In this document: piece after piece, positions 608 through 22,394 of the stretch | Layout of the letters: each line of letters opens with the position of its first letter | Position numbering within the stretch: the first letter of the stretch is position 1 | NCBI GenBank assembly: GCA_030740295.1 | Contig: JASLXP010000655.1 | Location: 1 to 26,415, forward strand | Reading direction: 5' to 3' | From: Planctomycetota bacterium | GTDB lineage: Bacteria; Planctomycetota; PUPC01; JACPCR01 | Length of the DNA stretch: 26,415 nucleotides | Translations under genes and position numbers: made by a program | Notes under the pieces: generated by a model | What the model saw: only the letters and a program-made list of their open reading frames with translations | What the model was told of the DNA's origin: nothing | Database searches by the model: none

Positions 608-1834
608 ATGACAGATAAGATACGACTGGCATTGGTCGGCTGCGGAGGCATGGCTGGAGCACATCTGAACGGTTATCGAGATCTAAGGGACAAGGGCATC
701 GACTTCTTTGAAATCGTCTGCGTCTGCGATCCTGCACTGGACAGGGCCGAAGCATTTGCCAAAAGAATTGCTGAATTTCAGCCGGATCGGGAAGTCACTT
801 TGCATGCATCACTCGACGAGATGCTGGAGAAGGAAGAGCTGCATTGCGTGGACACTTCCAGCCCTCACCACCTGCATCATGTCATTGCCTGCGCATGCCT
901 GGAAGCGGGCGTGGATGTCATGGTTGAGAAACCACTGGGCGTCACGGTACGTGCCGCGAGAAAAATGATCGAGACCGCCGAACGGACCGGTCAGATTCTC
1001 GCGGTCGCTGAGCAGGTCCGGCGTTGGATAGGACCGAGGGTGGTGCAGTGGGCCGTAACGAATGAAGAAATGTCCGGCCGGCCGAGAATGTTCTTTGCAC
1101 AAAGTTCCAGAGGGCCACAGGACCTGCCCGTGGAAGCGGACGTAAAGAACAAGGTCTGGCGGCACGAGAAGCTCAAAGGAGGCGGTGGATCGGTCATTGA
1201 CGGGGCTGTCCACTACGCGGATTTTCTCATCTACTGTTACGGCGAGCCGGACACAGTCTCTGCAACCTGCGGCAACCTCAATCGCTCTTACACGCTGGAC
1301 GAAGACGGCGAACGGCAGCCCATGGATTGGCCGGATACGGTGATCTCCTTCATACGGTTCAAGAGCGGCATTTCGGGCACCTGGACATGGACGGGCGCGG
1401 CGCCGGGCAAGGCCATTTCTTTTACCAACCACCATGGGGACCTTGGCTCTGTTTACGCCGAGGGGAATTACCCGATGAAACCTGAATTTCATCAGCGGGA
1501 TAAGACCTGCATTCCGTACGAAGAACTCCTTGAACAGTATCTGTCCAGCCTGTCGTCGGATGATCTTGCCAGGCTCTTTCCGCCGGAGCTCTATCCGGAA
1601 CCGAGGGAGCTCGGGGGCGATCATGGTGTGCCACTGGAGGCATACGATTTTCTCTGCGCAGTCAGAGACCGACGGCGCCCCGAGCTGGACGGCATGGACG
1701 GTCTGGTCGCCCAGTCACTGTCCGAAGCCTGTCTGGAATCATCAGAGCTTGGAAGGAGTGTTTCCTATGATGAAGTGCTCGCCGGCGAAGTTCGTGCTTA
1801 TCAACAGGAGATAGATGATGCGTACGGGCTTTGA
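608..1834 (+). CDS. Gfo/Idh/MocA family NAD(P)-dependent oxidoreductase
   Basis: A 408-residue cytoplasmic oxidoreductase of the glucose-fructose oxidoreductase/inositol dehydrogenase family. The Rossmann dinucleotide-binding motif GCGGMAGAH lies at about residues 12-20, and the family EKP motif (VMVEKPLGV) at about 101-109. The C-terminal alpha/beta domain includes GGGSVIDGAVHYADF, where the histidine sits at the usual catalytic or substrate-binding place. AGAGGA (about 597-602) lies five bases before the ATG and supports the start. Members oxidise or epimerise sugars, inositols or sugar acids; the substrate cannot be read from sequence. It converges with a second family member, with only 8 bp between their stop codons. 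The two differ clearly in length and sequence, so this is not a recent tandem duplication. Confidence 0.9.
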   Translation: MTDKIRLALVGCGGMAGAHLNGYRDLRDKGIDFFEIVCVCDPALDRAEAFAKRIAEFQPDREVTLHASLDEMLEKEELHCVDTSSPHHLHHVIACACLEAGVDVMVEKPLGVTVRAARKMIETAERTGQILAVAEQVRRWIGPRVVQWAVTNEEMSGRPRMFFAQSSRGPQDLPVEADVKNKVWRHEKLKGGGGSVIDGAVHYADFLIYCYGEPDTVSATCGNLNRSYTLDEDGERQPMDWPDTVISFIRFKSGISGTWTWTGAAPGKAISFTNHHGDLGSVYAEGNYPMKPEFHQRDKTCIPYEELLEQYLSSLSSDDLARLFPPELYPEPRELGGDHGVPLEAYDFLCAVRDRRRPELDGMDGLVAQSLSEACLESSELGRSVSYDEVLAGEVRAYQQEIDDAYGL

Positions 1835-1842
1835 ATGGGAGC

Positions 1843-2871
1843 TCATCCCTGCGTCTCTCCCAAATCCACAACGTTCCCCGTCAGGATCGATTCGTAGCAG
1901 GCATCGATAACTTTCATCTGGTTGATACTGTTCTCTGGCGAGATGCGATGTGGCTGCCCGCTCTCGAGGCAATCGCAGAGATGGTCGAGCTGATTGACGA
2001 ACTGATGAACCGGCCCGAACTCCAGCTTTTCCGTTTTACTACCGGGCCGGTGATGTGTCATGGTCGCCACCTGGTTCTCGTTGTTCCAGACCGGCTCGAG
2101 TCTGAGCATGCCTTCCGATCCGCAGATTTCTGCGTAGTGGGCCACGCCTGACCGCCAGCCAAAGGATAACTGCGCAGTCGCATCGTTTGGAAAAGTCAGA
2201 AGCGCATAGACCGCGTCATCAACGTCCATACCCATCTGCACAGTGGCGTACACCCGCGTCGGGTCTGCACCAAAGATAAACCGAGCGTGGTGAATGCAGT
2301 AACATCCCAGGTCAAACATGGCGCCGCCGCCTCTGGTACGGTCGAAACGCCAGTTTGATTCAGGCTTACGTTTCGAAGCATCGCCGCCGGACATGCAGAA
2401 AGTGCTGCGAATGGTCGTGACCTCACCCAGGTCCCCTGCATCAGTCATTGCCTTCGCCTTCAGATGCATCGGGTGATGCCGAAATTTGAAAGCCTCGGCC
2501 AGCATGACGCCGTTTTCGACGGCCACCTTTACCATGTCTTCCGCCTCCGCAGCATCCTGTGCAAAGGGCTTTTCACAAAGGATCGCTTTTACTTTTTGCG
2601 ACTGTGCGATCTGATTGCTGACCTCACGATGTAGAACGCCCCAGGTACAGATGATGGCGATGTCAAGGTCTTCTTTTTCCAACATCTGATCCAGGTCGAG
2701 GTAGCGATTCTCGACCTCGAAATTCTCACAGAACGCTGTCAATGCCTGTTCTGAGATATCGGTGACCGAGCACAGTTCAACGCGGTCAAGGCTCTGGCAC
2801 GCGTGGGCATGGGAGCGGGAGATGCCCCCGGTGCCAACAAGCCCGACGCGAATTTTATTTTCTGAAGACAT
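1843..2871 (-). CDS. Gfo/Idh/MocA family NAD(P)-dependent oxidoreductase
   Basis: A 342-residue family member, close to the usual length. The N-terminal Rossmann motif is GTGGISRSHAHA (about residues 13-24). EKPFAQ follows near residue 100, then EAFKFRHHPMH, which resembles the conserved R-HP region of this family. The segment GGGAMFDLGCYCIHHARF supplies the GCYxxH-type catalytic region. It probably acts on a sugar or sugar-derived substrate in the cytoplasm. It lies 56 bp downstream of the membrane-anchored protein at 2928-4706 on the same strand and could be co-transcribed with it. No clear ribosome binding site precedes the ATG at 2871. Confidence 0.9.
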   Translation of the reverse strand: MSSENKIRVGLVGTGGISRSHAHACQSLDRVELCSVTDISEQALTAFCENFEVENRYLDLDQMLEKEDLDIAIICTWGVLHREVSNQIAQSQKVKAILCEKPFAQDAAEAEDMVKVAVENGVMLAEAFKFRHHPMHLKAKAMTDAGDLGEVTTIRSTFCMSGGDASKRKPESNWRFDRTRGGGAMFDLGCYCIHHARFIFGADPTRVYATVQMGMDVDDAVYALLTFPNDATAQLSFGWRSGVAHYAEICGSEGMLRLEPVWNNENQVATMTHHRPGSKTEKLEFGPVHQFVNQLDHLCDCLESGQPHRISPENSINQMKVIDACYESILTGNVVDLGETQG

Positions 2872-9730: not shown

Positions 9731-11188
9731 ATGAAAGACAGACAACTCAGACTTCGGATCGGATGGGCACAGACGGACATCACTCCGGAGGAGCCGGTGA
9801 TGATCTCGGGGCAGTTTCATGTACGTATTTCGGAAGGCGTCGCTGACCCGATTACAGCGACTGCGCTGGTCCTCGATACCGGGCAGGATCATGCTGTTAT
9901 GGTGAGTCTGGACGTCGTGACCATTTCCGCGGACATGCTTCAACTGGTTCGTGAACGCGTTTCGGGAGTCAAGGGACTCGATCCTGAGAAAGTGATCCTC
10001 AATGCCACTCACACGCACACCGGGCCGGAGGTCCGAATCGCACGCCCGGGCACGGCGAATGTTTCTACAAGACCAGGTGTGGAACTGGATGCCATGCCGG
10101 TGGAGGTCTATCTTGAAATTGCGGCAGAGCGGATCGCTGCGGCCGTGAAGGAAGCTTGGGAGGGACGCACCGCGGGGCGCATGGCCTACGGGCTCGGCTA
10201 CGCGGTCGTTGGACGGAATCGGCGTTGGTCCAATGCTGAAGGTGAGGCGCGAATGTATGGAAATACAAACGACCCGGGCTTCAGTCATATCGAAGGCTAT
10301 GAAGACCATAGCCTCAATCTGCTGGCCACTTATTCTGAGAGGGGAGATCTGACCGGGCTGGTGGTCAATGTGCCTTGCCCGTCGCAGGTAAGCGAGAGCG
10401 AGTATCAGTTGAGCGCGGATTACTGGTACGAGACACGAACGGAACTTCGACGGCGTTTCGGGGAGGGCATTTTCATTCTGCCGCAATGCAGCGCGGCTGG
10501 CGATCAGTCTCCGCATCTACTGTTCGACAAACAGGCCAACAACCGCATGCTCTCGCTCAAGGGCCGTTCTGTCAGGGAAGAGATTGCTCAACGAATTGCG
10601 CAGGCCGTCGAGGAAGTCCTGGCGACGGTGAAGGACACTGCCGATGGTGAGACAGTGCTGCAGCATCAAATCGAAACCTTGGAACTGCCGATGAACGAGC
10701 TCACCGAAGAGGATGCCCGTTCGGCACTGGCGGAGTCTGATTCGTATCGCCGCGATTACGAAGAGGAAATCCGAAAGCTGGAGGAGAACCCGGGCCTCCG
10801 TGACGAGTCACGCTGGTATGTGTCCGTCACGCGTGCGCACCGTCGGATGCTGTGGCATCGAGGCGTCGCCCACCGATTCGAGGCGCAGAAAAAGAAAGCG
10901 TCCCTGCCGGTGGAAGTACACGTCGTCAGGCTCGGGGGCATCGCTTTCGCCACCAACCGGTTCGAGTTCTACCTTGACATGGGTATTCACATCAAAGCGC
11001 GCAGCCCGGCCTGCCAGACGTTCATCGTCCAGCTCGCGGGAGAAGGCACGTATTGTCCGAGTACGCGTTCGGTGGCCGGTGGCGGTTATGGTTCGGTAGC
11101 GGCCAGTAATCCCGTGGGCCCGGAAGGCGGACGCATGCTGGCCAGTAGGACAGTAGAGCTGCTGCAGGAACTCTGGGAAGAGAACTGA
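9731..11188 (+). CDS. Neutral/alkaline ceramidase-like (PF04734-type) protein
   Basis: A 485-residue protein with the layout of the N-terminal catalytic domain of neutral/alkaline non-lysosomal ceramidases. It begins LRIGWAQTDITPEEPVMISG, followed by the D-P-hydrophobic strand ADPITATALVLDTG and NATHTHTGPEV (about residues 93-103), whose histidines match the zinc-binding HTHSGP region. A later Tyr-rich end (EGTYCPS...GGGYGS) also fits the family. It is shorter than classical ceramidases (600-750 residues) and shows no signal peptide. In PVC-group genomes such short proteins are common and their substrate is not established, so ceramide hydrolysis should not be assumed. GAGGGA four bases before the ATG at 9731 supports the start. 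It is separated from the redox operon by the repeat-bearing gap and is probably its own transcript. Confidence 0.8.
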   Translation: MKDRQLRLRIGWAQTDITPEEPVMISGQFHVRISEGVADPITATALVLDTGQDHAVMVSLDVVTISADMLQLVRERVSGVKGLDPEKVILNATHTHTGPEVRIARPGTANVSTRPGVELDAMPVEVYLEIAAERIAAAVKEAWEGRTAGRMAYGLGYAVVGRNRRWSNAEGEARMYGNTNDPGFSHIEGYEDHSLNLLATYSERGDLTGLVVNVPCPSQVSESEYQLSADYWYETRTELRRRFGEGIFILPQCSAAGDQSPHLLFDKQANNRMLSLKGRSVREEIAQRIAQAVEEVLATVKDTADGETVLQHQIETLELPMNELTEEDARSALAESDSYRRDYEEEIRKLEENPGLRDESRWYVSVTRAHRRMLWHRGVAHRFEAQKKKASLPVEVHVVRLGGIAFATNRFEFYLDMGIHIKARSPACQTFIVQLAGEGTYCPSTRSVAGGGYGSVAASNPVGPEGGRMLASRTVELLQELWEEN

Positions 11189-12186: not shown

Positions 12187-12849
12187 TCAAGTGATGGAGA
12201 ACCAGCGCACCAGCTCAGCAGCGACGACTTCGTGTCCTTTGCGGTTGGGGTGATTCGACCATGAGAGGAAATCCGTGATGTCTCCGGATGTGCCCGAATG
12301 GCGTTCGATGGCGGCCATGCTGTCTGCGAGCCCGACATCGTATTCACCTGCAAGTTCTCGAATTTGTGAGGCATGCCCCTGGAGTGCCATCCAGTTTTCC
12401 GCGGCGGGATCTTTGAGGCCGGAGGTGTCCGGGGTTGGCGTGAGTAGAATGACCTTGGCCTTCGCTTCCAGCGATTCGGCGATCATGGACCGCCATGCGA
12501 CCTCGGCTTCCTGGAAGCCAATCCGGCGATCGTTCAATCCGTAATCTATAGTGACGACATCCGGTCTGTGACAGAGGACGTCTTCCTCAAATCGCTTGGC
12601 ACCGCGGGCGGAGTGCTCGCCACCGACGGCTGTGACGATGACGTTGATTACAGCGAATGGGTAGATCTCTTTCAGGCTCTTGTGGAGCAGATGAGGATAA
12701 GCATTGAAAGTATCGACCATCGGGGTCGCAAAGTAGCCGGAGGGCACGCTGTGCCCATGGCAGACGATGTTGATCGAGCGGTTATCCGGCCACTGGGCCT
12801 TTAGCTCAGCGATCAGATCTGAGAGGTAGCCTCGAATGTTGGCGCTCAT
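12187..12849 (-). CDS. SGNH/GDSL-type hydrolase with GHS in place of GDS
   Basis: A 220-residue cytoplasmic SGNH-fold hydrolase (esterase/lipase/deacetylase superfamily). Block I reads HGHSVPSGYF (Ser34 as nucleophile, His33 where Asp is usual). Block III is IDYGLNDR (Asn in the oxyanion hole), and block V is NHPNRKGHEVV with the catalytic histidine, but without the usual Asp three residues before it. This may be a separate subfamily with a Ser-His arrangement. Its ATG overlaps the stop of the YjbQ gene (ATGA, 12846-12849), so translation is coupled. The substrate is unknown; acyl or acetyl esters of sugars are typical for the superfamily. Confidence 0.8.
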   Translation of the reverse strand: MSANIRGYLSDLIAELKAQWPDNRSINIVCHGHSVPSGYFATPMVDTFNAYPHLLHKSLKEIYPFAVINVIVTAVGGEHSARGAKRFEEDVLCHRPDVVTIDYGLNDRRIGFQEAEVAWRSMIAESLEAKAKVILLTPTPDTSGLKDPAAENWMALQGHASQIRELAGEYDVGLADSMAAIERHSGTSGDITDFLSWSNHPNRKGHEVVAAELVRWFSIT

Positions 12850-13244
12850 GAATCGTGAGTTACTTTGACGTGAATTGTCCTCTGCCGCGGGCCATCAAAT
12901 TCGCAAAACCAGATACCTTGCCAGGTGCCGAGAACAAGTCGGCCGTCTTCTATCAATACTGTGAGGGAAAAGCCCATCATGGATGCCTTGACATGCGAGG
13001 CGCTGTTGCCTTCGGCATGGCGGTAAAAGGGCTGACGCCAGGGCACTATCACATCGAGCTGCTTGAGCATGTCATGGACTACATCCGGGTCAGCGTTTTC
13101 ATTGATGGTGATCCCGGCAGTGGTATGGGGGACGTAGACGATGACCTGGCCGGACTGAACGGCCGCATCATTCACAATCTGCTGGACATCTCCGGTGATC
13201 TCGATGAACTGATCGCGCTGGCTTGTACTGACCTGGAGAAGCAT
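12846..13244 (-). CDS. yjbQ: YjbQ family protein (UPF0047)
   Basis: A compact 132-residue protein of the YjbQ/UPF0047 family. The highly conserved features are present: VPHTTAGITINENADPDV (about residues 41-58), HAEGNSASHVKASMMG (about 77-92) and LGTWQGIWFCEFDGPRQR near the C-terminus. Members form trimers with a metal-like histidine site, and one E. coli member has been linked to weak thiamine-phosphate synthase activity; the true role is uncertain. ATG 13244 shares its A with the TGA of the response-regulator gene (TGATG), indicating translational coupling; TTG 13247 is a less likely start. No independent ribosome binding site is seen. Confidence 0.92.
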   Translation of the reverse strand: MLLQVSTSQRDQFIEITGDVQQIVNDAAVQSGQVIVYVPHTTAGITINENADPDVVHDMLKQLDVIVPWRQPFYRHAEGNSASHVKASMMGFSLTVLIEDGRLVLGTWQGIWFCEFDGPRQRTIHVKVTHDS

Positions 13245-14590
13245 CAAAACCGTTTGAGCTTGCGATAGAGTGTGCTTCTGTCAATGCCAAGAATCTGGGC
13301 CGCCAGCATCTTGTCACCGCCGGTTCGTTCGAGTGTTCTGAGAATGGCATCCTTCTCAATTTCTTCGAGCGGCTTGAGGTCTTCACTGCTGCCGCTTGTG
13401 AAAGGGGCCGCCCGGCTTGACCTGAAAATGGAAGGCGGCAGATCCTCTTTTTCGATCCTGTCAGACATGCCCAACGCAAGCGCACGCTCGACGAGGTTTT
13501 CCAGTTCGCGCACGTTTCCGGGCCAACTGTACGTGCTGATGGCCTCAAGCGCGTCCTCGCTGATCCCCACCATGCGGCGGTTGCCGGAGCTCTTGGTTTC
13601 AAGGAAATGGGCCACCAGCAGTTCAGTGTCCCCGCGCCTTTCGCGTAGAGACGGCAAGGTGATGTTGACGATGTTCAACAGGTAATAAAACTCCTGGCGA
13701 AACTGGCCGGTCTGGATGCTCTCTTCAAGAGGTGTGTTGGAGGCCGCGATGACACGAACATCGAGCTTGAGGTCATGGACGCTTCCCACGGGCCGGACTG
13801 AATTCTCCTGAAATGCACGGAGGAGTTTCACCTGCATCTCTATTGGGAGCTCTCCGATAGCGTCCAGAAAAACGGTACCTCCCTCGGCCATTTTCAGCAG
13901 GCCTTCTTTGTAGTTGCCGACCCCACCTCGATCCTGGCCGAACAACTCGACCTCGAACTGGCCGGGCGGAATGGCAGCGCAGTCAATTGGCACGAAAGGT
14001 TTGGAGGCCCTCGGACTGTTGTAATGGATGGCCTTGGCAACGAGCTCCTTGCCGGTGCCATTTTCACCTTCGATCAGGACGGTGGCGTGTTCCTGGCTGA
14101 CTCGTTGAACAATCTGCCGGGCTCTCTTTATCGCGTCCGATTCTCCGACGATGCGATCGTAGCTGTAATCTTCTTTGAGCTGGCTGCGAAGGAGCTGATT
14201 CTCAACCGTCAGCCTCTTAATTCGCTCGAGCTTCCTTACCGCCCGCTGCATTTCTTCAAGCTCGAAAGGCTTCGGCAGATAATCGAACGCGTCATACCGG
14301 ACCGCCTGCACCGCGGATTCAATGTCGGCGTACGCGGTCATGATGATGACTTCGGTACTCGGGCTCTTGTCCTTCACCTGCTGCAACACCTGCAGGCCGT
14401 CCATCCCGGGCAGTTTGTAATCGGCAACTACGAGGTCGTAGAACGAATCTTCAACCTGTGCCAGGCCACTCTCACCATTACCCGCGGATTCGACAGTGTG
14501 GCCGAAAGAACGCAGGAAACCTTCGCAGACGCTGCGCATGGAAGGTTCATCATCAATAACCAGGACATGCAGGGGTTGTGAGACGGACAT
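13244..14590 (-). CDS. NtrC-family response regulator with degenerate AAA+ core
   Basis: 448 residues with a receiver domain (about 8-120: acidic pair Asp13/Asp14, phospho-acceptor Asp57, Thr85, Lys107), an AAA+ domain (about 145-370) and a Fis-type helix-turn-helix (about 412-446, DKMLAAQILGIDRSTLYRKL). Walker A is GENGTGK (175-181). The core departs from sigma-54 activators at key places. ELFGQDRGGVGNYKEGLL replaces the segment with GAFTGA and is about three residues shorter. Walker B is FLDAIGELP with Ala244 for Glu, and YYLLN replaces YYRLN, losing a candidate arginine finger. It probably works as a phosphorylation-controlled DNA binder (repressor or sigma-70 regulator) rather than a sigma-54 ATPase. 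It is paired with the histidine kinase 2 bp upstream and coupled to yjbQ downstream. Confidence 0.92.
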   Translation of the reverse strand: MSVSQPLHVLVIDDEPSMRSVCEGFLRSFGHTVESAGNGESGLAQVEDSFYDLVVADYKLPGMDGLQVLQQVKDKSPSTEVIIMTAYADIESAVQAVRYDAFDYLPKPFELEEMQRAVRKLERIKRLTVENQLLRSQLKEDYSYDRIVGESDAIKRARQIVQRVSQEHATVLIEGENGTGKELVAKAIHYNSPRASKPFVPIDCAAIPPGQFEVELFGQDRGGVGNYKEGLLKMAEGGTVFLDAIGELPIEMQVKLLRAFQENSVRPVGSVHDLKLDVRVIAASNTPLEESIQTGQFRQEFYYLLNIVNITLPSLRERRGDTELLVAHFLETKSSGNRRMVGISEDALEAISTYSWPGNVRELENLVERALALGMSDRIEKEDLPPSIFRSSRAAPFTSGSSEDLKPLEEIEKDAILRTLERTGGDKMLAAQILGIDRSTLYRKLKRF

Positions 14591-14592
14591 GT

Positions 14593-15864
14593 TCAGATTG
14601 CTTTCGCTTTCAGCCTGGGCTTTTCGATGGTGTTCTCTGCATCGGATCGAGTAGCGGCCAGCACAACCGTGAACTGTGAGCCTCTACCCGACTTGGAATG
14701 CACATCGATAAATCCACCGTGGGCGCGCACGATGCTGTAGGTGATGGCGAGGCCGAGGCCGAGACCATACCCGACCTCTTTGGTGGTAACAAACGGCTCG
14801 AATACCTTGTCAACGAGTTCCGCGGACATGCCCTGTCCGTGATCGATCACGTCGATTTTCAAAACAGGATCGCCCTCTTCCAGCATCAGAGGCATGGAGA
14901 ATTCCGCGTCCCGCCCCATCAGGCGTTGGACGTCACTCGTAAGGCCATCGGCATCTGAAATCGAGCCTTTCAGGACCATCATGTCATTCTTGTCCAGAGT
15001 GCTGAGAGCTGTGCTCAAAGTGATCGTACCGCCGCCCTTCATGGCTTCCGCTGCATTGGAAATGAGGTTGTCGAGCACCATGCGCAGGTGGTCCTTCCGG
15101 CCAAAAACATTGGCGTTCTGCGCGGCCAGCTTTTCTTCAACTTCGATGCCGGTATCGAGGAATCGCGGCCGAAAGGCGTCAAGCGCTTCATGAACAATCG
15201 TATGAATGTCGACCGTGCTTTTTCGGAGATCCTCTGGGTCGGGGTTGCTGCGCGCGAAGTCGTTGAGGCCCTTTACGATTTCTCGGATTCGCCTGGCTTC
15301 TTTCTGAACGATGTCCAGGTAGGTGTGCTTCTCCTCATCCTCTTCCGGAATCTGCATTGCGAGGAGCCGGATGTGGCCGGTGATTGCCCCCAGTGGATTG
15401 TTGATTTCGTGAGACACGCCGGCTGCCATGCGGCCAATAGCGGCAAGGCGTTCGGAATGGGCGAGACGGCGCTGGGCACTGGTCAGCAGTTTCTGGGCCT
15501 CGGTGAGGCGTTGCGTACGGCTTTCACTTTCCTCCTGAAGCTCTTTCACCCGCCGCTCGCGCAACCCGTCGAGAATCCCTGCAATGCCAGTGCTTATCAG
15601 TACCAGAAGGCCGACCACCAGGTAACCACTCTCCAGCATGTTCCGGCCGAGATTTGTGAGGTCAGAGGCGGAGACGAGGAGAAGATCAATTTCTCGCGCC
15701 GCCTCTGGAGAAGGATCCCTGAACCATATGGCGATGGCCTCGACAAGATCTTCCAGATTTTCCCTGGCGAAAAAATAGACATTGCACAAAAGGCCGATGG
15801 CCAGCCCCTTCAATCCATTGCCAATGACTGCAGTATCTCTGAGGAAGGACCACGATCTGGTCAT
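14593..15864 (-). CDS. Membrane sensor histidine kinase
   Basis: 423 residues. Two membrane helices (about 14-32 and 80-98) flank a short extracytoplasmic loop of about 47 residues, so there is no large sensor domain. A coiled-coil linker (about 100-135) leads to the H-box GVSHEINNPLG (His152), N-box LDNLISNAAEAM, G1 DHGQGM (Asp341) and G2 GYGLGLGLAI. The sequence is of the NtrB/ZraS-like HPK4 type, which usually pairs with NtrC-type regulators such as the one encoded 2 bp downstream. An extra segment of about 45 residues (about 287-332) lies between the N and G1 boxes. It is the first gene of the five-gene minus-strand run and diverges from the FHA-kinase gene. No good Shine-Dalgarno sequence is visible before ATG 15864. 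Confidence 0.9.
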   Translation of the reverse strand: MTRSWSFLRDTAVIGNGLKGLAIGLLCNVYFFARENLEDLVEAIAIWFRDPSPEAAREIDLLLVSASDLTNLGRNMLESGYLVVGLLVLISTGIAGILDGLRERRVKELQEESESRTQRLTEAQKLLTSAQRRLAHSERLAAIGRMAAGVSHEINNPLGAITGHIRLLAMQIPEEDEEKHTYLDIVQKEARRIREIVKGLNDFARSNPDPEDLRKSTVDIHTIVHEALDAFRPRFLDTGIEVEEKLAAQNANVFGRKDHLRMVLDNLISNAAEAMKGGGTITLSTALSTLDKNDMMVLKGSISDADGLTSDVQRLMGRDAEFSMPLMLEEGDPVLKIDVIDHGQGMSAELVDKVFEPFVTTKEVGYGLGLGLAITYSIVRAHGGFIDVHSKSGRGSQFTVVLAATRSDAENTIEKPRLKAKAI

Positions 15865-15886: not shown

Positions 15887-15949
15887 TTGAAATGGCACGG
15901 AAATGCGCCAAAGGCAGCCGAAGTCTAACAGTGGGTATACCCATTTCAA
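15887..15949. promoter_or_regulatory. Inverted repeat and perfect palindrome in divergent regulatory region
   Basis: TTGAAATGG (15887-15895) and CCATTTCAA (15941-15949) are perfect 9-base inverted copies. The right copy overlaps a perfect 12-base palindrome, TGGGTATACCCA (15932-15943). A TATGAT hexamer at 15958-15963 could be a plus-strand -10 box, without a convincing -35. The region lies between the histidine kinase and FHA-kinase genes and is a natural place for an operator; the binding protein is not known. Confidence 0.45.
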
Positions 15950-16090
15950 ATATCGGCTATGATGCTAAGATTATTGAACGCAGCTAGAAAAAGATCACGA
16001 AACAGAACACAATAGTATTCTCTCCGGTACCCCTTAAGTTGGATTGACAGGAACTTCTCTCCGCCGATTTTTTCCTTCAGAGGAATAACG

Positions 16091-17323
16091 TTGGCTCAGA
16101 TAATCTTCGCTAGCGGACCGGACAAGGGGCGTGTCGTCCCTTTGGGAGAGGGCACATTGATATTCGGGCGAGATGTCAATTGCACTGTGCGGCTCTTCGA
16201 CCCGCTGACTTCACGCAGGCACTTTGTTATCGAACCCGAGAACGGAGCGCTCTCCGTTTCTGACAAGGGGAGCCTGAACGGCACCATGTTGAACGGCCAT
16301 GTCGTAGACCGCGGGCCGCTGCAGTATGGGGACAACATTCAGATAGGAAATACCAACCTCTACTTCGTCTCTGATGAAGAGGCCCAGCTCTGGGCCGGTC
16401 TGATCGACCGGGACCTGGGTGGCTACAAAATCACACGAAGGCTTGGCCGCGGCGGCCGAGCGACCGTTTACCTGGCGGAACAGCAATCCATGCAGCGAGA
16501 GGTCGCCTTGAAGGTCCTCTCCGAGGAATATGCAGAAGACGAAAACTACGTGAAGCGTTTCGTGGAAGAGGCCCAGGGCGCGGGAAGACTACAGCATCCG
16601 TGCGTGGTGCAGGTGTTCGATGTTGGAAGTGATGAGGGCCATCACTTTTACTCCATGGAGTATTTTGAGCTGGGTTGCGTGCAGGACTACCTCTGCCAGC
16701 GAGGCAGCCTGACCGTGCTGGAAGGCCTGCGGATGATGTCCGACGTCGCCAGAGGGCTCGAATACGCACATTCACAGAAGATCGTTCATAGGGATATCAA
16801 GCCGGAAAATCTGCTGCTGGACCAGAATGGGAATATCCGCATCGGCGACCTGGGCCACGCAATCAATGCTGACGATACGAAGATGGCAGAGGGGAGCATC
16901 GTGGGCACGCCGCATTATATGTCCCCCGAGCAGGCAAGCGGCCAAGCCGTGGATCACCGTTCTGATTTATACGCATTGGGATGCACCGCCTACAAAGCTC
17001 TGAGTGGAAGGTATCCCTTTGAAGGCCAGACCCATGATGAGATCATCACCCGCCAGATGACCCAGATGGCCAAAGCATTGCACGAGCTCAAACCAGAAGT
17101 ACCTCTTAACCTATGCCGCATCATCCAGAGACTGATGGCAAAGAAACCAGAGGATCGCTACCAGACAGCCACGGAGCTCTTGCAGGATTTGACCCCGCTC
17201 CTGCTCACGACACTCCAGAGCTCGGCGCAGACCTCCACCACCCACACTCAGGTTTTGAGTAAACTGCTGTCGCAAGTACCAGGCGGGGATGCGCCTCTGG
17301 ATAAGACCGTGATTATTGGGTGA
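16091..17323 (+). CDS. FHA-domain serine/threonine protein kinase
   Basis: 410 residues, start TTG 16091 supported by AGAGGAA seven bases upstream. Residues 3-95 form a forkhead-associated domain (FGR at 25-27, TSRRH at 40-44, SLNGT at 61-65), which binds phosphothreonine. Residues 112-370 form a Hanks-type kinase: glycine loop LGRGGRATVY, Lys141 in VALK, catalytic HRDIKPEN (Asp235, Asn240), DLG (253-255) in place of DFG, GTPHYMSPEQ in the activation/P+1 region, then SDLYALGCTAYKALSG. No membrane helix is seen, so it is probably cytosolic. The last residues, LDKTVIIG, contain a Thr with Ile at +3, the kind of site FHA domains bind. The gene diverges from the two-component operon, and its 3' end overlaps the TlpA-like gene by 11 bp. 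Confidence 0.92.
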   Translation: MAQIIFASGPDKGRVVPLGEGTLIFGRDVNCTVRLFDPLTSRRHFVIEPENGALSVSDKGSLNGTMLNGHVVDRGPLQYGDNIQIGNTNLYFVSDEEAQLWAGLIDRDLGGYKITRRLGRGGRATVYLAEQQSMQREVALKVLSEEYAEDENYVKRFVEEAQGAGRLQHPCVVQVFDVGSDEGHHFYSMEYFELGCVQDYLCQRGSLTVLEGLRMMSDVARGLEYAHSQKIVHRDIKPENLLLDQNGNIRIGDLGHAINADDTKMAEGSIVGTPHYMSPEQASGQAVDHRSDLYALGCTAYKALSGRYPFEGQTHDEIITRQMTQMAKALHELKPEVPLNLCRIIQRLMAKKPEDRYQTATELLQDLTPLLLTTLQSSAQTSTTHTQVLSKLLSQVPGGDAPLDKTVIIG

Positions 17324-20256: not shown

Positions 20257-21381
20257 ATGAAAATCACCGAACTGAAAACCTGCATCATCAACAACGGTGT
20301 GCGCGGTTACGTCTTCCTCAAAATTGAAACCGACGAGGGGATTCACGGCTGGGGCGAAGGCACGCTCGAATCAAAGGAACGCGCCGTCGTCGCTGCCATC
20401 CATGATCTGAAACACCACGTCGTTGGAGAAGACCCCACTCGCATCGAGTTCTTGTGGCAGTGCCTGCGCAGGCACGGATTCTGGCGCGGCGGAGTGGTCA
20501 CCAACACTGCGCTCAGCGCAATCGATCACGCGCTCTGGGACATCACCGGCAAGGCATATGGCCAACCTGTCTACAAACTGCTTGGCGGGGCATGCCGGGA
20601 CCGCATCCGCTGCTACTGTCACGGAGGTGCGGGGAACGTAAAGGACAAATTCGATGAAGGGTGGAGAGCCATTAAGTGCGGGGCAGGAGGCGTGGATGCC
20701 GAAGGTGTCTATCACGAAAAGAACGTCATCCCCGACTGCACGGAAAATCTCTCGAAGATGCGGGAGCTGGTCGGCGAAGAGATGGACATCATGGTCGATG
20801 TGCACGGCCGTCTTCGTCCCTCCATGGCCATTCGTCTGGCCCGTGCGGTCGAGCCCTTCCATCTGATGTTTCTGGAAGAGCCCGTCCCACCGGACAACGT
20901 CGATGCGTTCGCCAAACTACGCGACAGCCGCCCTTCCGTTGACATCGCTACCGGCGAGCGGCTCTTCATGCGCTGGGGCTTCCGCCGCCTGATCGAGAAG
21001 CAATACGTGGATGTGATCCAGCCGGACATCTGCCATTGCGGCGGCATCAGCGAGCTCCGCAAGATCGCGGCAATGGCGGAGACCTACTACATAAAGGTTG
21101 CTCCTCACAATCCGAACGGCCCCGTTGCCACGGCCGCCTCGGCACATGTCGCCGCCGCTATACCGAATTTCCTGAACCTTGAGACAGTCGTTGTCGAAAA
21201 CCTCTGGAACGAGATAGTGACAGAAAAGGTCTTCAGGCCGCAGAACAGCTACCTGGAGCTACCAACCCAGCCCGGCCTTGGCATCGAACTCGATGAAGAA
21301 CGTCTCGCTGCAGAAGGAGAATTCCAGCAGGGGGCTTACGGGAAGAACCTGGACCCGGATGGCGCACCTAGTGATATTTGA
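20257..21381 (+). CDS. Mandelate racemase/muconate lactonizing enzyme family dehydratase (galactonate dehydratase-like)
   Basis: 374 residues of the enolase superfamily. The N-terminal capping domain (about 1-115) ends with SAIDHALWDITGKAYGQPVYKLLGG. The TIM barrel carries the metal ligands Asp181 (MVDVHGR), Glu207 (FLEEPVPP) and Glu234 (TGERL), with the catalytic histidines His183 and His284 (APHNPNGP). This combination fits the D-galactonate dehydratase-like group, which removes water from sugar acids to give 2-keto-3-deoxy acids. The exact sugar acid is not predictable. The following gene starts 32 bp downstream on the same strand, probably in one operon. No clear ribosome binding site precedes ATG 20257. 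Confidence 0.88.
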   Translation: MKITELKTCIINNGVRGYVFLKIETDEGIHGWGEGTLESKERAVVAAIHDLKHHVVGEDPTRIEFLWQCLRRHGFWRGGVVTNTALSAIDHALWDITGKAYGQPVYKLLGGACRDRIRCYCHGGAGNVKDKFDEGWRAIKCGAGGVDAEGVYHEKNVIPDCTENLSKMRELVGEEMDIMVDVHGRLRPSMAIRLARAVEPFHLMFLEEPVPPDNVDAFAKLRDSRPSVDIATGERLFMRWGFRRLIEKQYVDVIQPDICHCGGISELRKIAAMAETYYIKVAPHNPNGPVATAASAHVAAAIPNFLNLETVVVENLWNEIVTEKVFRPQNSYLELPTQPGLGIELDEERLAAEGEFQQGAYGKNLDPDGAPSDI

Positions 21382-21413: not shown

Positions 21414-22394
21414 ATGCGAATCCTTAACTCAAACGACATCAGACAAGCCCTCCCGATGGGCGAGTGCATCGCAGCGATTCGCCAGGCTGTGGTTGCGCTT
21501 TCAGAAGGCGAATTCGTAGTGCCGGAACGCATTCCGATGGAATCCGACGGCGGCATCAGCCTGATCATGCCCGCGTTGTGGCCGGAGAAGAATGCCACCT
21601 CTACAAAGCTCATTTCCATCTATCCGGATAATCCTGCGAAAGGGCTGCCCACCATTCACGGGATTCTGATCCTTCAGGACTCATCGACCGGACGCCCGCT
21701 CGCCCTGATGGATTCGGCTTCGTTAACGGCCCTGCGTACCGGGGCGCTGTGCGGAGTGGCGGCAGAGGCGCTGTGCAAGGAGGATAAACCGGTTGTCGCT
21801 ATCTTTGGCGCGGGGAAACAGGCACGAACACAAGCGGAAGCAGTCCTGGCAGTTCATGACGTATCGCAGATTCGGATCTACAGTCGGACCAGATCCAATG
21901 TGGAAGAACTCGTGGAGGAACTATCCGATCAAGCCTGGTGTGATTGTGAGGTCTCTGCCGCAGATTCATCGTCAGTAGCGGTGAAGGACGCGGACATCGT
22001 GATGTGCGCGACCACTTCCAGCACACCGATCCTGAATGGCGATGATGTCAAGCCGGGCGCGCACGTCAGCGCGATCGGCGCTTTCACGCCAGAAGACCGC
22101 GAACTGGACAGCCAACTGGTGCAGCATGCCGATCTGCTGGTGGTTGATACCTACGCCGGAGCCCTCGAGGAAGCCGGCGATTTTCTCATTCCGATGAATG
22201 AGGGCCTCATCCGCAGGGAAGATTTCTCGACCGAGATCGGCGAGGTCGTCGCAGGCGTGAAAGCGGGCCGCACAAGCCCGGAACAGATCACGATCTTCAA
22301 AAGCGTCGGCAATGCAGCATTCGATGTCGCTTCCGCGCCGATTGCATTGGCCAACGCTGAGCGAATGGGGCTCGGGACAATGTGTGAGATCTGA
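21414..22394 (+). CDS. Ornithine cyclodeaminase/mu-crystallin family protein
   Basis: 326 residues with the OCD/mu-crystallin fold: substrate-binding part at the N-terminus, then the NAD(P)-binding motif FGAGKQARTQAEAV (about 131-144). DSASLTALRTGA (about 100-111) is the conserved segment ahead of the Rossmann domain, and Lys65 lies where the family's catalytic lysine is expected. Members include ornithine cyclodeaminase, ketimine reductases, and alanine or lysine dehydrogenase-like enzymes; the reaction here is open. GGAG at 21400-21403, ten bases before ATG, is an acceptable ribosome binding site. It probably shares a transcript with the dehydratase upstream. Only 6 bp separate it from the convergent LamG gene. 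Confidence 0.88.
   Translation: MRILNSNDIRQALPMGECIAAIRQAVVALSEGEFVVPERIPMESDGGISLIMPALWPEKNATSTKLISIYPDNPAKGLPTIHGILILQDSSTGRPLALMDSASLTALRTGALCGVAAEALCKEDKPVVAIFGAGKQARTQAEAVLAVHDVSQIRIYSRTRSNVEELVEELSDQAWCDCEVSAADSSSVAVKDADIVMCATTSSTPILNGDDVKPGAHVSAIGAFTPEDRELDSQLVQHADLLVVDTYAGALEEAGDFLIPMNEGLIRREDFSTEIGEVVAGVKAGRTSPEQITIFKSVGNAAFDVASAPIALANAERMGLGTMCEI

Follow-up and report, generated by a model that had tools for sequence, protein, structure and literature searches.

What does an NtrC-type response regulator do when the elements by which such proteins engage and drive the sigma-54 polymerase have been altered? The question is raised by one gene (13244..14590, minus strand) in a Planctomycetota sequence of 26,415 nucleotides, which as a whole is referred to here as the window. 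In the list of open reading frames the gene begins with ATG and encodes 448 aa, comprising a receiver domain (residues 1–118; 14237..14590, minus strand), an AAA+ domain with its lid (residues 147–394; 13409..14152, minus strand) and a Fis-type helix-turn-helix (HTH; residues 408–448; 13247..13369, minus strand). All of the corresponding Pfam matches exceeded the curated cut-off: Response_reg (9–118), Sigma54_activat (147–310), AAA_lid_14 (316–394) and HTH_8 (408–448). The receiver contains Asp57, Thr85 and Lys107, which are unchanged in 11/11 members of the protein's family that possess an N-terminus, and the HTH sequence DRSTLYRKLKR is present in all 12 members. Both domains are thus as intact as the initial annotation of this DNA had described them.

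The state of the AAA+ motifs was established by alignment to P0008, a family member with 63% identity. Walker A (GENGTGKE; 14045..14068, minus strand) and sensor II (WPGNVREL; 13502..13525, minus strand) are intact. The L1 loop (residues 219–227; 13910..13936, minus strand) reads ELFGHERGAFTGATQPNIGLF in P0008 and ELFGQDRGGVGNYKEGLL in the window protein, where GAFTGA is replaced and three residues are missing. Walker B reads FLDEI in P0008 and FLDAI in the window protein, with the Asp kept and the Glu position occupied by an Ala (codon GCT; 13859..13861, minus strand), while FRKDLFYRLN corresponds to FRQEFYYLLN, so that the RxDxxxR position reads RQEFYYL (13679..13699, minus strand) with a Leu in place of the second Arg. 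The three changes that the initial annotation had reported, in GAFTGA, the Walker B Glu and the Arg of YYRLN, are confirmed by this alignment and by the nearest non-members, of which 163/163 are intact at these positions. A fourth change, Asp to Glu in RxDxxxR, had escaped it; this is weak evidence, because the same Asp is absent from 3/163 non-members. R298 preserves the first RxDxxxR Arg, at the position of PspF R162, identified as the R-finger (PMC3419264). The window protein therefore combines the receiver/AAA+/Fis-type HTH order and the Walker A motif of NtrC-group sigma-54 activators with the absence of GAFTGA, the Walker B Glu and a full RxDxxxR, and its broken L1 loop with retained Walker A is a feature shared with the GAFTGA-less, sigma-70-acting NtrC-type group. 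An AlphaFold model of the regulator was mediocre (mean pLDDT 71, pTM 0.53), with loop residues 220–227 below 50, and no conclusion on the loop was drawn from it.

Homologues were sought among 5.8 billion proteins, with 8000 candidates scored and the best 120 listed. Twelve close homologues (P0001–P0012) showed 63–100% identity, followed by a drop to 47% among the matches listed, and a second search with the family alignment returned the identical 12 above the drop with no additional member among its listed matches. The family formed a clade with support of 100/100 in both trees, the first of which excluded L046 (6 residues long) and placed L045 on a terminal branch of about 6–10, probably owing to a mis-framed translation, whereas the second used L044 alone of these loci; the sister rows P0121, P0122, P0131 and L044 all contain GAFTGA or GSFTGA. 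This is the distinct regulator subfamily whose existence the initial annotation had suggested. The source names are Planctomycetota bacterium for P0004 and P0005 and Planctomycetes bacterium for P0009. In a scan of 392 genomes from the phylum of the relative G001, with four candidates scored per genome, matches of 886 and 865 bits occurred only in G001 and G002 and the next best reached 504; the order of G001 is represented by two genomes in the collection, and the gene is present in both.

Within the family the losses are unevenly distributed. The GAFTGA loop is degenerate in 11/12 members, although one loop glycine persists in most. Of the two RxDxxxR arginines, the second has gone from 10/12 members, replaced by Leu in P0001–P0005, P0009 and P0010, by Gln in P0007 and P0012 and by Ser in P0006, so that P0008 and P0011 still carry it. 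Ser takes the place of the first in 2/12 (P0007 and P0012), and the Asp of the motif is Glu in 6/12 (P0001–P0005 and P0007). The Walker B Glu is lost in 3/12, being replaced by Ala in P0001 and P0005 and by Asp in P0011, and is present in the other nine; P0002–P0004, relatives with 86–90% identity, keep it and share two of the three changes with the window protein. Every one of the 11 loop-broken members has a replacement at the Walker B Glu or at one or both RxDxxxR Arg, P0011 qualifying only through its Glu to Asp change. The 12 members uniformly keep the Walker A GK with the following Glu, the Walker B Asp and the sensor II Arg. The idea that the three positions would be found changed together in homologues does not hold, and simultaneous loss of the three motifs is ruled out by this distribution.

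The nearest non-members, 162 from the homologue searches plus L044, served as a control set (n=163): G[AS]FT[GD]A, the Walker B Glu and each of the two Arg were found in 163/163 and the RxDxxxR Asp in 160/163, so that loss of the Walker B Glu or of an RxDxxxR Arg occurred in 0/163. The 11 loop-broken members do not represent 11 independent events, because they include a near-identical pair (P0001 and P0005, 99%) and partial sequences (P0005 and P0012) and share common descent. On a tree built without the motif columns, parsimony required two changes for the loop and three for the second Arg, and the grouping of all losers in one clade was not rejected by an AU test (p 0.201 and 0.17). P0008 has GAFTGA, the Walker B Glu and RxDxxxR all intact; it is 63% identical to the window protein, with the same domains and in the same clade, and differs from it in retaining all three motifs. 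To judge from its residues, P0008 is presumably a normal sigma-54 activator, and because of it the family as a whole cannot be called sigma-54-independent. An intact homologue had been named in advance as an argument against a distinct function: one exists, at 63% identity, but there is none among the closest relatives. The source names of P0004, P0005 and P0009 describe these proteins as sigma-54-dependent, probably wrongly in each case.

The alteration of three otherwise near-invariant motifs in one protein might indicate a decaying gene or a sequencing or assembly error, yet this explanation has almost nothing left to recommend it. The frame is open, P0002–P0004 share two of the changes, and P0005, a partial NCBI protein with 99% identity, contains all three. 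Moreover, the Walker B codon is GCT in the window, GAA in the related locus L001 and GAG in L002, two substitutions away from either. A one-base error is ruled out by P0005 and by the distance of the Ala codon, and the local defect that the initial annotation had considered is not what is found. Comparison of the window with L001 (NG86) gave dN 0.070 and dS 1.25 for the whole gene (dN/dS ~0.06), dN 0.054 and dS 1.20 for the AAA+ core (dN/dS 0.045) and dN 0.055 and dS 1.26 for the receiver, values obtained from a single usable pair, whose dS (~1.25) approaches saturation, and which do not isolate the window branch. The regulator gene is under strong purifying selection relative to this one relative, as the initial annotation had supposed from its open frame. 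The regulator is not decaying, because Walker A, the Walker B Asp, sensor II, the phospho-acceptor and the HTH are kept and dN/dS is ~0.06.

Constraint is not uniform along the protein. Identity between the window and L002 is 71% in the receiver, 59% in the AAA+ domain and 83% in the HTH. Of 11 reciprocal-best pairs of activators between G001 and G002, 10 showed higher conservation in the AAA+ domain (0.66–0.83) than in the N-terminal part, and the regulator pair alone was reversed (AAA+ 0.60, N-terminal part 0.66). This comparison drew on 16 activator loci per genome, and the contrast is indicative because the 15 others were the best-scoring ones, a choice favouring conserved AAA+ domains, and some have longer N-terminal parts. 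The AAA+ domain remains under selection, apparently less tightly than in the paralogues that drive sigma-54.

Loss of sigma-54 from the lineage was considered as the cause and is ruled out for the two relatives, since rpoN is present in the genomes of both G001 and G002. Sigma54_activat matches numbered 31 in G001 and 28 in G002, and the loop census covered those above 40 bits, the remaining 10 and 5, respectively, scoring at or below 40 bits. Besides the regulator gene, G001 has 19 loci, 17 of them with a GAFTGA-like loop (GAFTGA, GSFTGA, GAYTGA, GAFTDA, GSFTDA or GAFSGA) and two, L072 and L073, without; G002 has 22 loci, of which 20 have such a loop, L076 does not, and L078 stops short of it. 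Loop loss is therefore specific to a few paralogues, because rpoN and many GAFTGA activators persist in both relatives, and in the order to which the two belong, decoupling from sigma-54 apparently evolved on more than one occasion.

Several of these loci deserve a separate description. L072 (G001:C11:29000-31500) and L076 (G002:C98:1-2500) each encode a second GAFTGA-less receiver/AAA+/HTH regulator in the respective genome and are apparently orthologous by eye; L072 has the Walker B Glu and RxDxxxR, and the second Arg of L076 is Gln. L073 (G001:C16:4000-6500; 117.6 bits) is more degenerate, with Walker A GERGTYKG, no GAFTGA and Walker B FLDG, and its C-terminus has no Fis-type HTH by eye. 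At L075 (G001:C252:5500-8500) an activator gene is split across two frames in the AAA+ region and gives two overlapping matches.

The regulator has a partner. Two bases upstream lies a histidine kinase gene (HisKA and HATPase_c by Pfam; 14593..15864, minus strand) whose product is strongly hydrophobic in one segment at least, near residues 76–102. Among the matches listed, the kinase has 13 close relatives (54–100%, including itself and one partial copy), followed by proteins of at most 38% identity, and two of the kinase entries, P0186 and P0187, lie on contigs equal in length to those of P0009 and P0011; window and L001 kinases differ by dN 0.105 and dS 0.90, and the kinase–regulator pair is present in both L001 and L002. 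On the other side, a YjbQ/UPF0047 gene (12846..13244, minus strand; Pfam), whose ATG overlaps the regulator stop, likely belongs to the same operon in the window and in L001. YjbQ, a GDSL hydrolase and ThuA follow the regulator in the window and, by sequence, in L001; they are not constant components of the system, because the next downstream open frame in L002 is unlike YjbQ by eye. Divergent to the operon is a gene for an FHA and Ser/Thr protein kinase protein (16091–17323, plus strand), divergent by eye in L001 too.

A motif scan of the upstream region identified a sigma-70-like promoter (15922..15951, minus strand) with TTGAAA, a spacer of 16 and TAGACT, TG preceding the second hexamer, and the palindrome TGGGTATACCCA within the spacer; two such sites were found in 501 bases against 0.6 expected. 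The 30-base block 15922–15951 is identical in L001, where 156/228 columns of the whole spacer are identical, and 0/5000 shuffles matched this run. In L002, by eye, ACTGTTAAACT is retained and the palindrome is missing. The perfect 12-base palindrome TGGGTATACCCA has one exact site in the 9 Mb of G001 and none in G002, a frequency at chance level because the backwards control also yields one site in G001; a longer palindrome pattern found the same G001 site only, with 0 for its control. A search for strong sigma-54 promoters, defined as matching at least 9/11 consensus positions together with the GG and GC marks, found none in the window, L001 or L002 (6301–8100). From these sequence features, the operon would likely be transcribed by a sigma-70-type polymerase, and binding of the regulator to its own operon promoter, with autoregulation, is a possibility.

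Mutational studies of PspF indicate what the altered residues would cost. With E108A and R168A, Vmax falls from 39.5 per min to 0.15 and 0.17, respectively; E108A lowers Km from 250 to 100 µM and R168A raises it from 250 to above 4500 µM, and variants of R162, D164 and R168 are constitutive hexamers (PMC3419264). E108Q, itself active, still requires an intact GAFTGA for remodelling (PMC4132715). On these data the window protein should be a poor ATPase and fail to engage sigma-54, and its ATP binding may be weak in view of the Km of R168A. With the phospho-acceptor, Walker A and the HTH intact under selection, we regard it as probable that the window protein is a phosphorylation-gated, ATP-binding and poorly hydrolysing regulator that acts independently of sigma-54 at promoters of the sigma-70 type, where activation and repression are both compatible with its sequence.

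In the model that we propose, it is inferred that the protein is phosphorylated, that it binds ATP without hydrolysing it and that it works in the cell independently of sigma-54, as is the promoter class of its targets. The ancestor would have been a canonical sigma-54 enhancer-binding protein, now the regulator of a membrane kinase–regulator pair. The kinase would phosphorylate Asp57, upon which the regulator would oligomerise on DNA via its AAA+ domain. ATP would be bound, as proposed from the retention of Walker A, the Walker B Asp and sensor II, yet hardly hydrolysed, as proposed from the changes at the Walker B Glu and at two RxDxxxR positions, so that the nucleotide would be an assembly latch rather than a fuel. 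Without GAFTGA the regulator would be unable to engage or remodel the sigma-54 polymerase and would thus act by binding sigma-70-type promoters, possibly including its own.

Other functions can be imagined for such a protein. It may be a phospho-dependent DNA-binding protein whose AAA+ domain is a structural scaffold for oligomerisation in which the nucleotide has no role, an option to which we give some, though small, credence: both hydrolysis motifs are changed, the PspF R162/D164/R168 variants form hexamers constitutively, R168A with a Km above 4500 µM (PMC3419264), and VpsR is reportedly ATP-independent (PMC10274813). A pure scaffold, however, would not require the Walker A GK and Glu, the Walker B Asp or the sensor II Arg, which 12/12 members keep. 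That the protein enters mixed rings with an intact paralogue, tuning or poisoning sigma-54 activation in the manner of a natural dominant-negative subunit, is very improbable; many intact activators are encoded in the relatives' genomes and PspF subunits with different defects complement one another (PMC3419264), but the protein retains a receiver, an HTH and a kinase partner of its own, as would be expected of a separate pathway, and no intact paralogue lies within the window. Slightly less credible again is a weak residual activation of sigma-54 through the remodelled loop. The presence of rpoN in two relatives, the one loop glycine left in most members and the activity of PspF E108 variants on pre-opened DNA, lower for E108A, would agree with it, yet E108Q needs GAFTGA for remodelling (PMC4132715). 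The loop, moreover, varies across lineages and is shortened in that of the window, which also speaks against residual activation.

How does the window protein compare with regulators already known to be decoupled from sigma-54? TyrR and DhaR sense ligands through their N-terminal domains and are not known to carry a receiver paired with a kinase, unlike the window protein, and they resemble it, as do VpsR and YplP, in their broken GAFTGA. The loop is reported to be broken in the activator paralogues TyrR, DhaR, HupR, VpsR and YplP, with ~110 homologues deviating in this way, and TyrR and DhaR are reported to be sigma-70-dependent (PMC3162934), so that the kind of protein is already known. Rhodobacter capsulatus NtrC and HupR are likewise NtrC-type proteins without GAFTGA and sigma-70-dependent, although they are alphaproteobacterial and are likened here by description, not by sequence; at sigma-70 promoters R. 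capsulatus NtrC reportedly needs ATP binding but not hydrolysis (PMC10274813), and such proteins are the precedent for our reading. The window protein scores 382.5 against the NtrC equivalog TIGR01818, below its cut-off of 558.6. In Caulobacter crescentus NtrC, an 8-residue deletion has likewise removed the GAFTGA loop, and the protein works at sigma-70 promoters; growth on ammonium depends on its Walker A Lys and Walker B Asp, suggesting hydrolysis (PMC10274813), whereas the window protein has lost hydrolysis residues. The top Foldseek matches of the regulator model are NtrX proteins. Brucella NtrX (5m7n) shares the receiver/AAA+/HTH order and a loop of similar length without GAFTGA, but keeps the Walker B Asp-Glu and RxDxxxR; Caulobacter NtrX is also reported to lack GAFTGA (PMC10274813), and the window protein scores 345.6 against the NCBIfam NtrX model NF051870, below its cut-off of 600. 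VfmH, with the loop GAFTDA, has ATPase activity and did not recover sigma-54 in a pull-down (PMC10714721), and the set of proteins retained in PMC12316311 is restricted to those with GAFTGA.

Among the papers listed by searches of an open-access library, no title or abstract opening reports sigma-54-decoupled regulators in Planctomycetota. As far as that literature was searched, what is new is a Planctomycetota family that spans fully intact to loop-less, hydrolysis-defective members, and the finding extends sigma-54-decoupled regulators to this phylum. Because intact and broken members lie within 63–100% identity, the purpose of ATP hydrolysis in NtrC-type regulators becomes directly addressable, and one can ask what remains selected after sigma-54 contact is lost. 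Tentatively, and with somewhat more doubt than conviction, we suggest that the family may be a natural series from AAA+ activator to ATP-latched, hydrolysis-free switch, in which the catalytic losses followed the break of the loop lineage by lineage: the second Arg to Leu, Gln or Ser, the first Arg to Ser, and the Glu to Asp or Ala. The residues for ATP binding, phosphate acceptance and DNA binding would have remained constant throughout. Loss of the loop before catalytic loss fits with Brucella NtrX and L072, which keep the Walker B Glu and RxDxxxR without GAFTGA. If this is true, it is the contact with sigma-54 that keeps the hydrolysis machinery in place, and P0008 is the surviving intact form.

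Elsewhere in the window, a 485-residue open frame (9731–11188, plus strand) had no Pfam match at E 0.001. The genes at 608–1834 (plus strand), 1843–2871 (minus strand), 20257–21381 (plus strand) and 21414–22394 (plus strand) belong to sugar and acid metabolism, encoding two GFO/IDH/MocA oxidoreductases, a mandelate racemase-type enolase and an ornithine cyclodeaminase-type protein.
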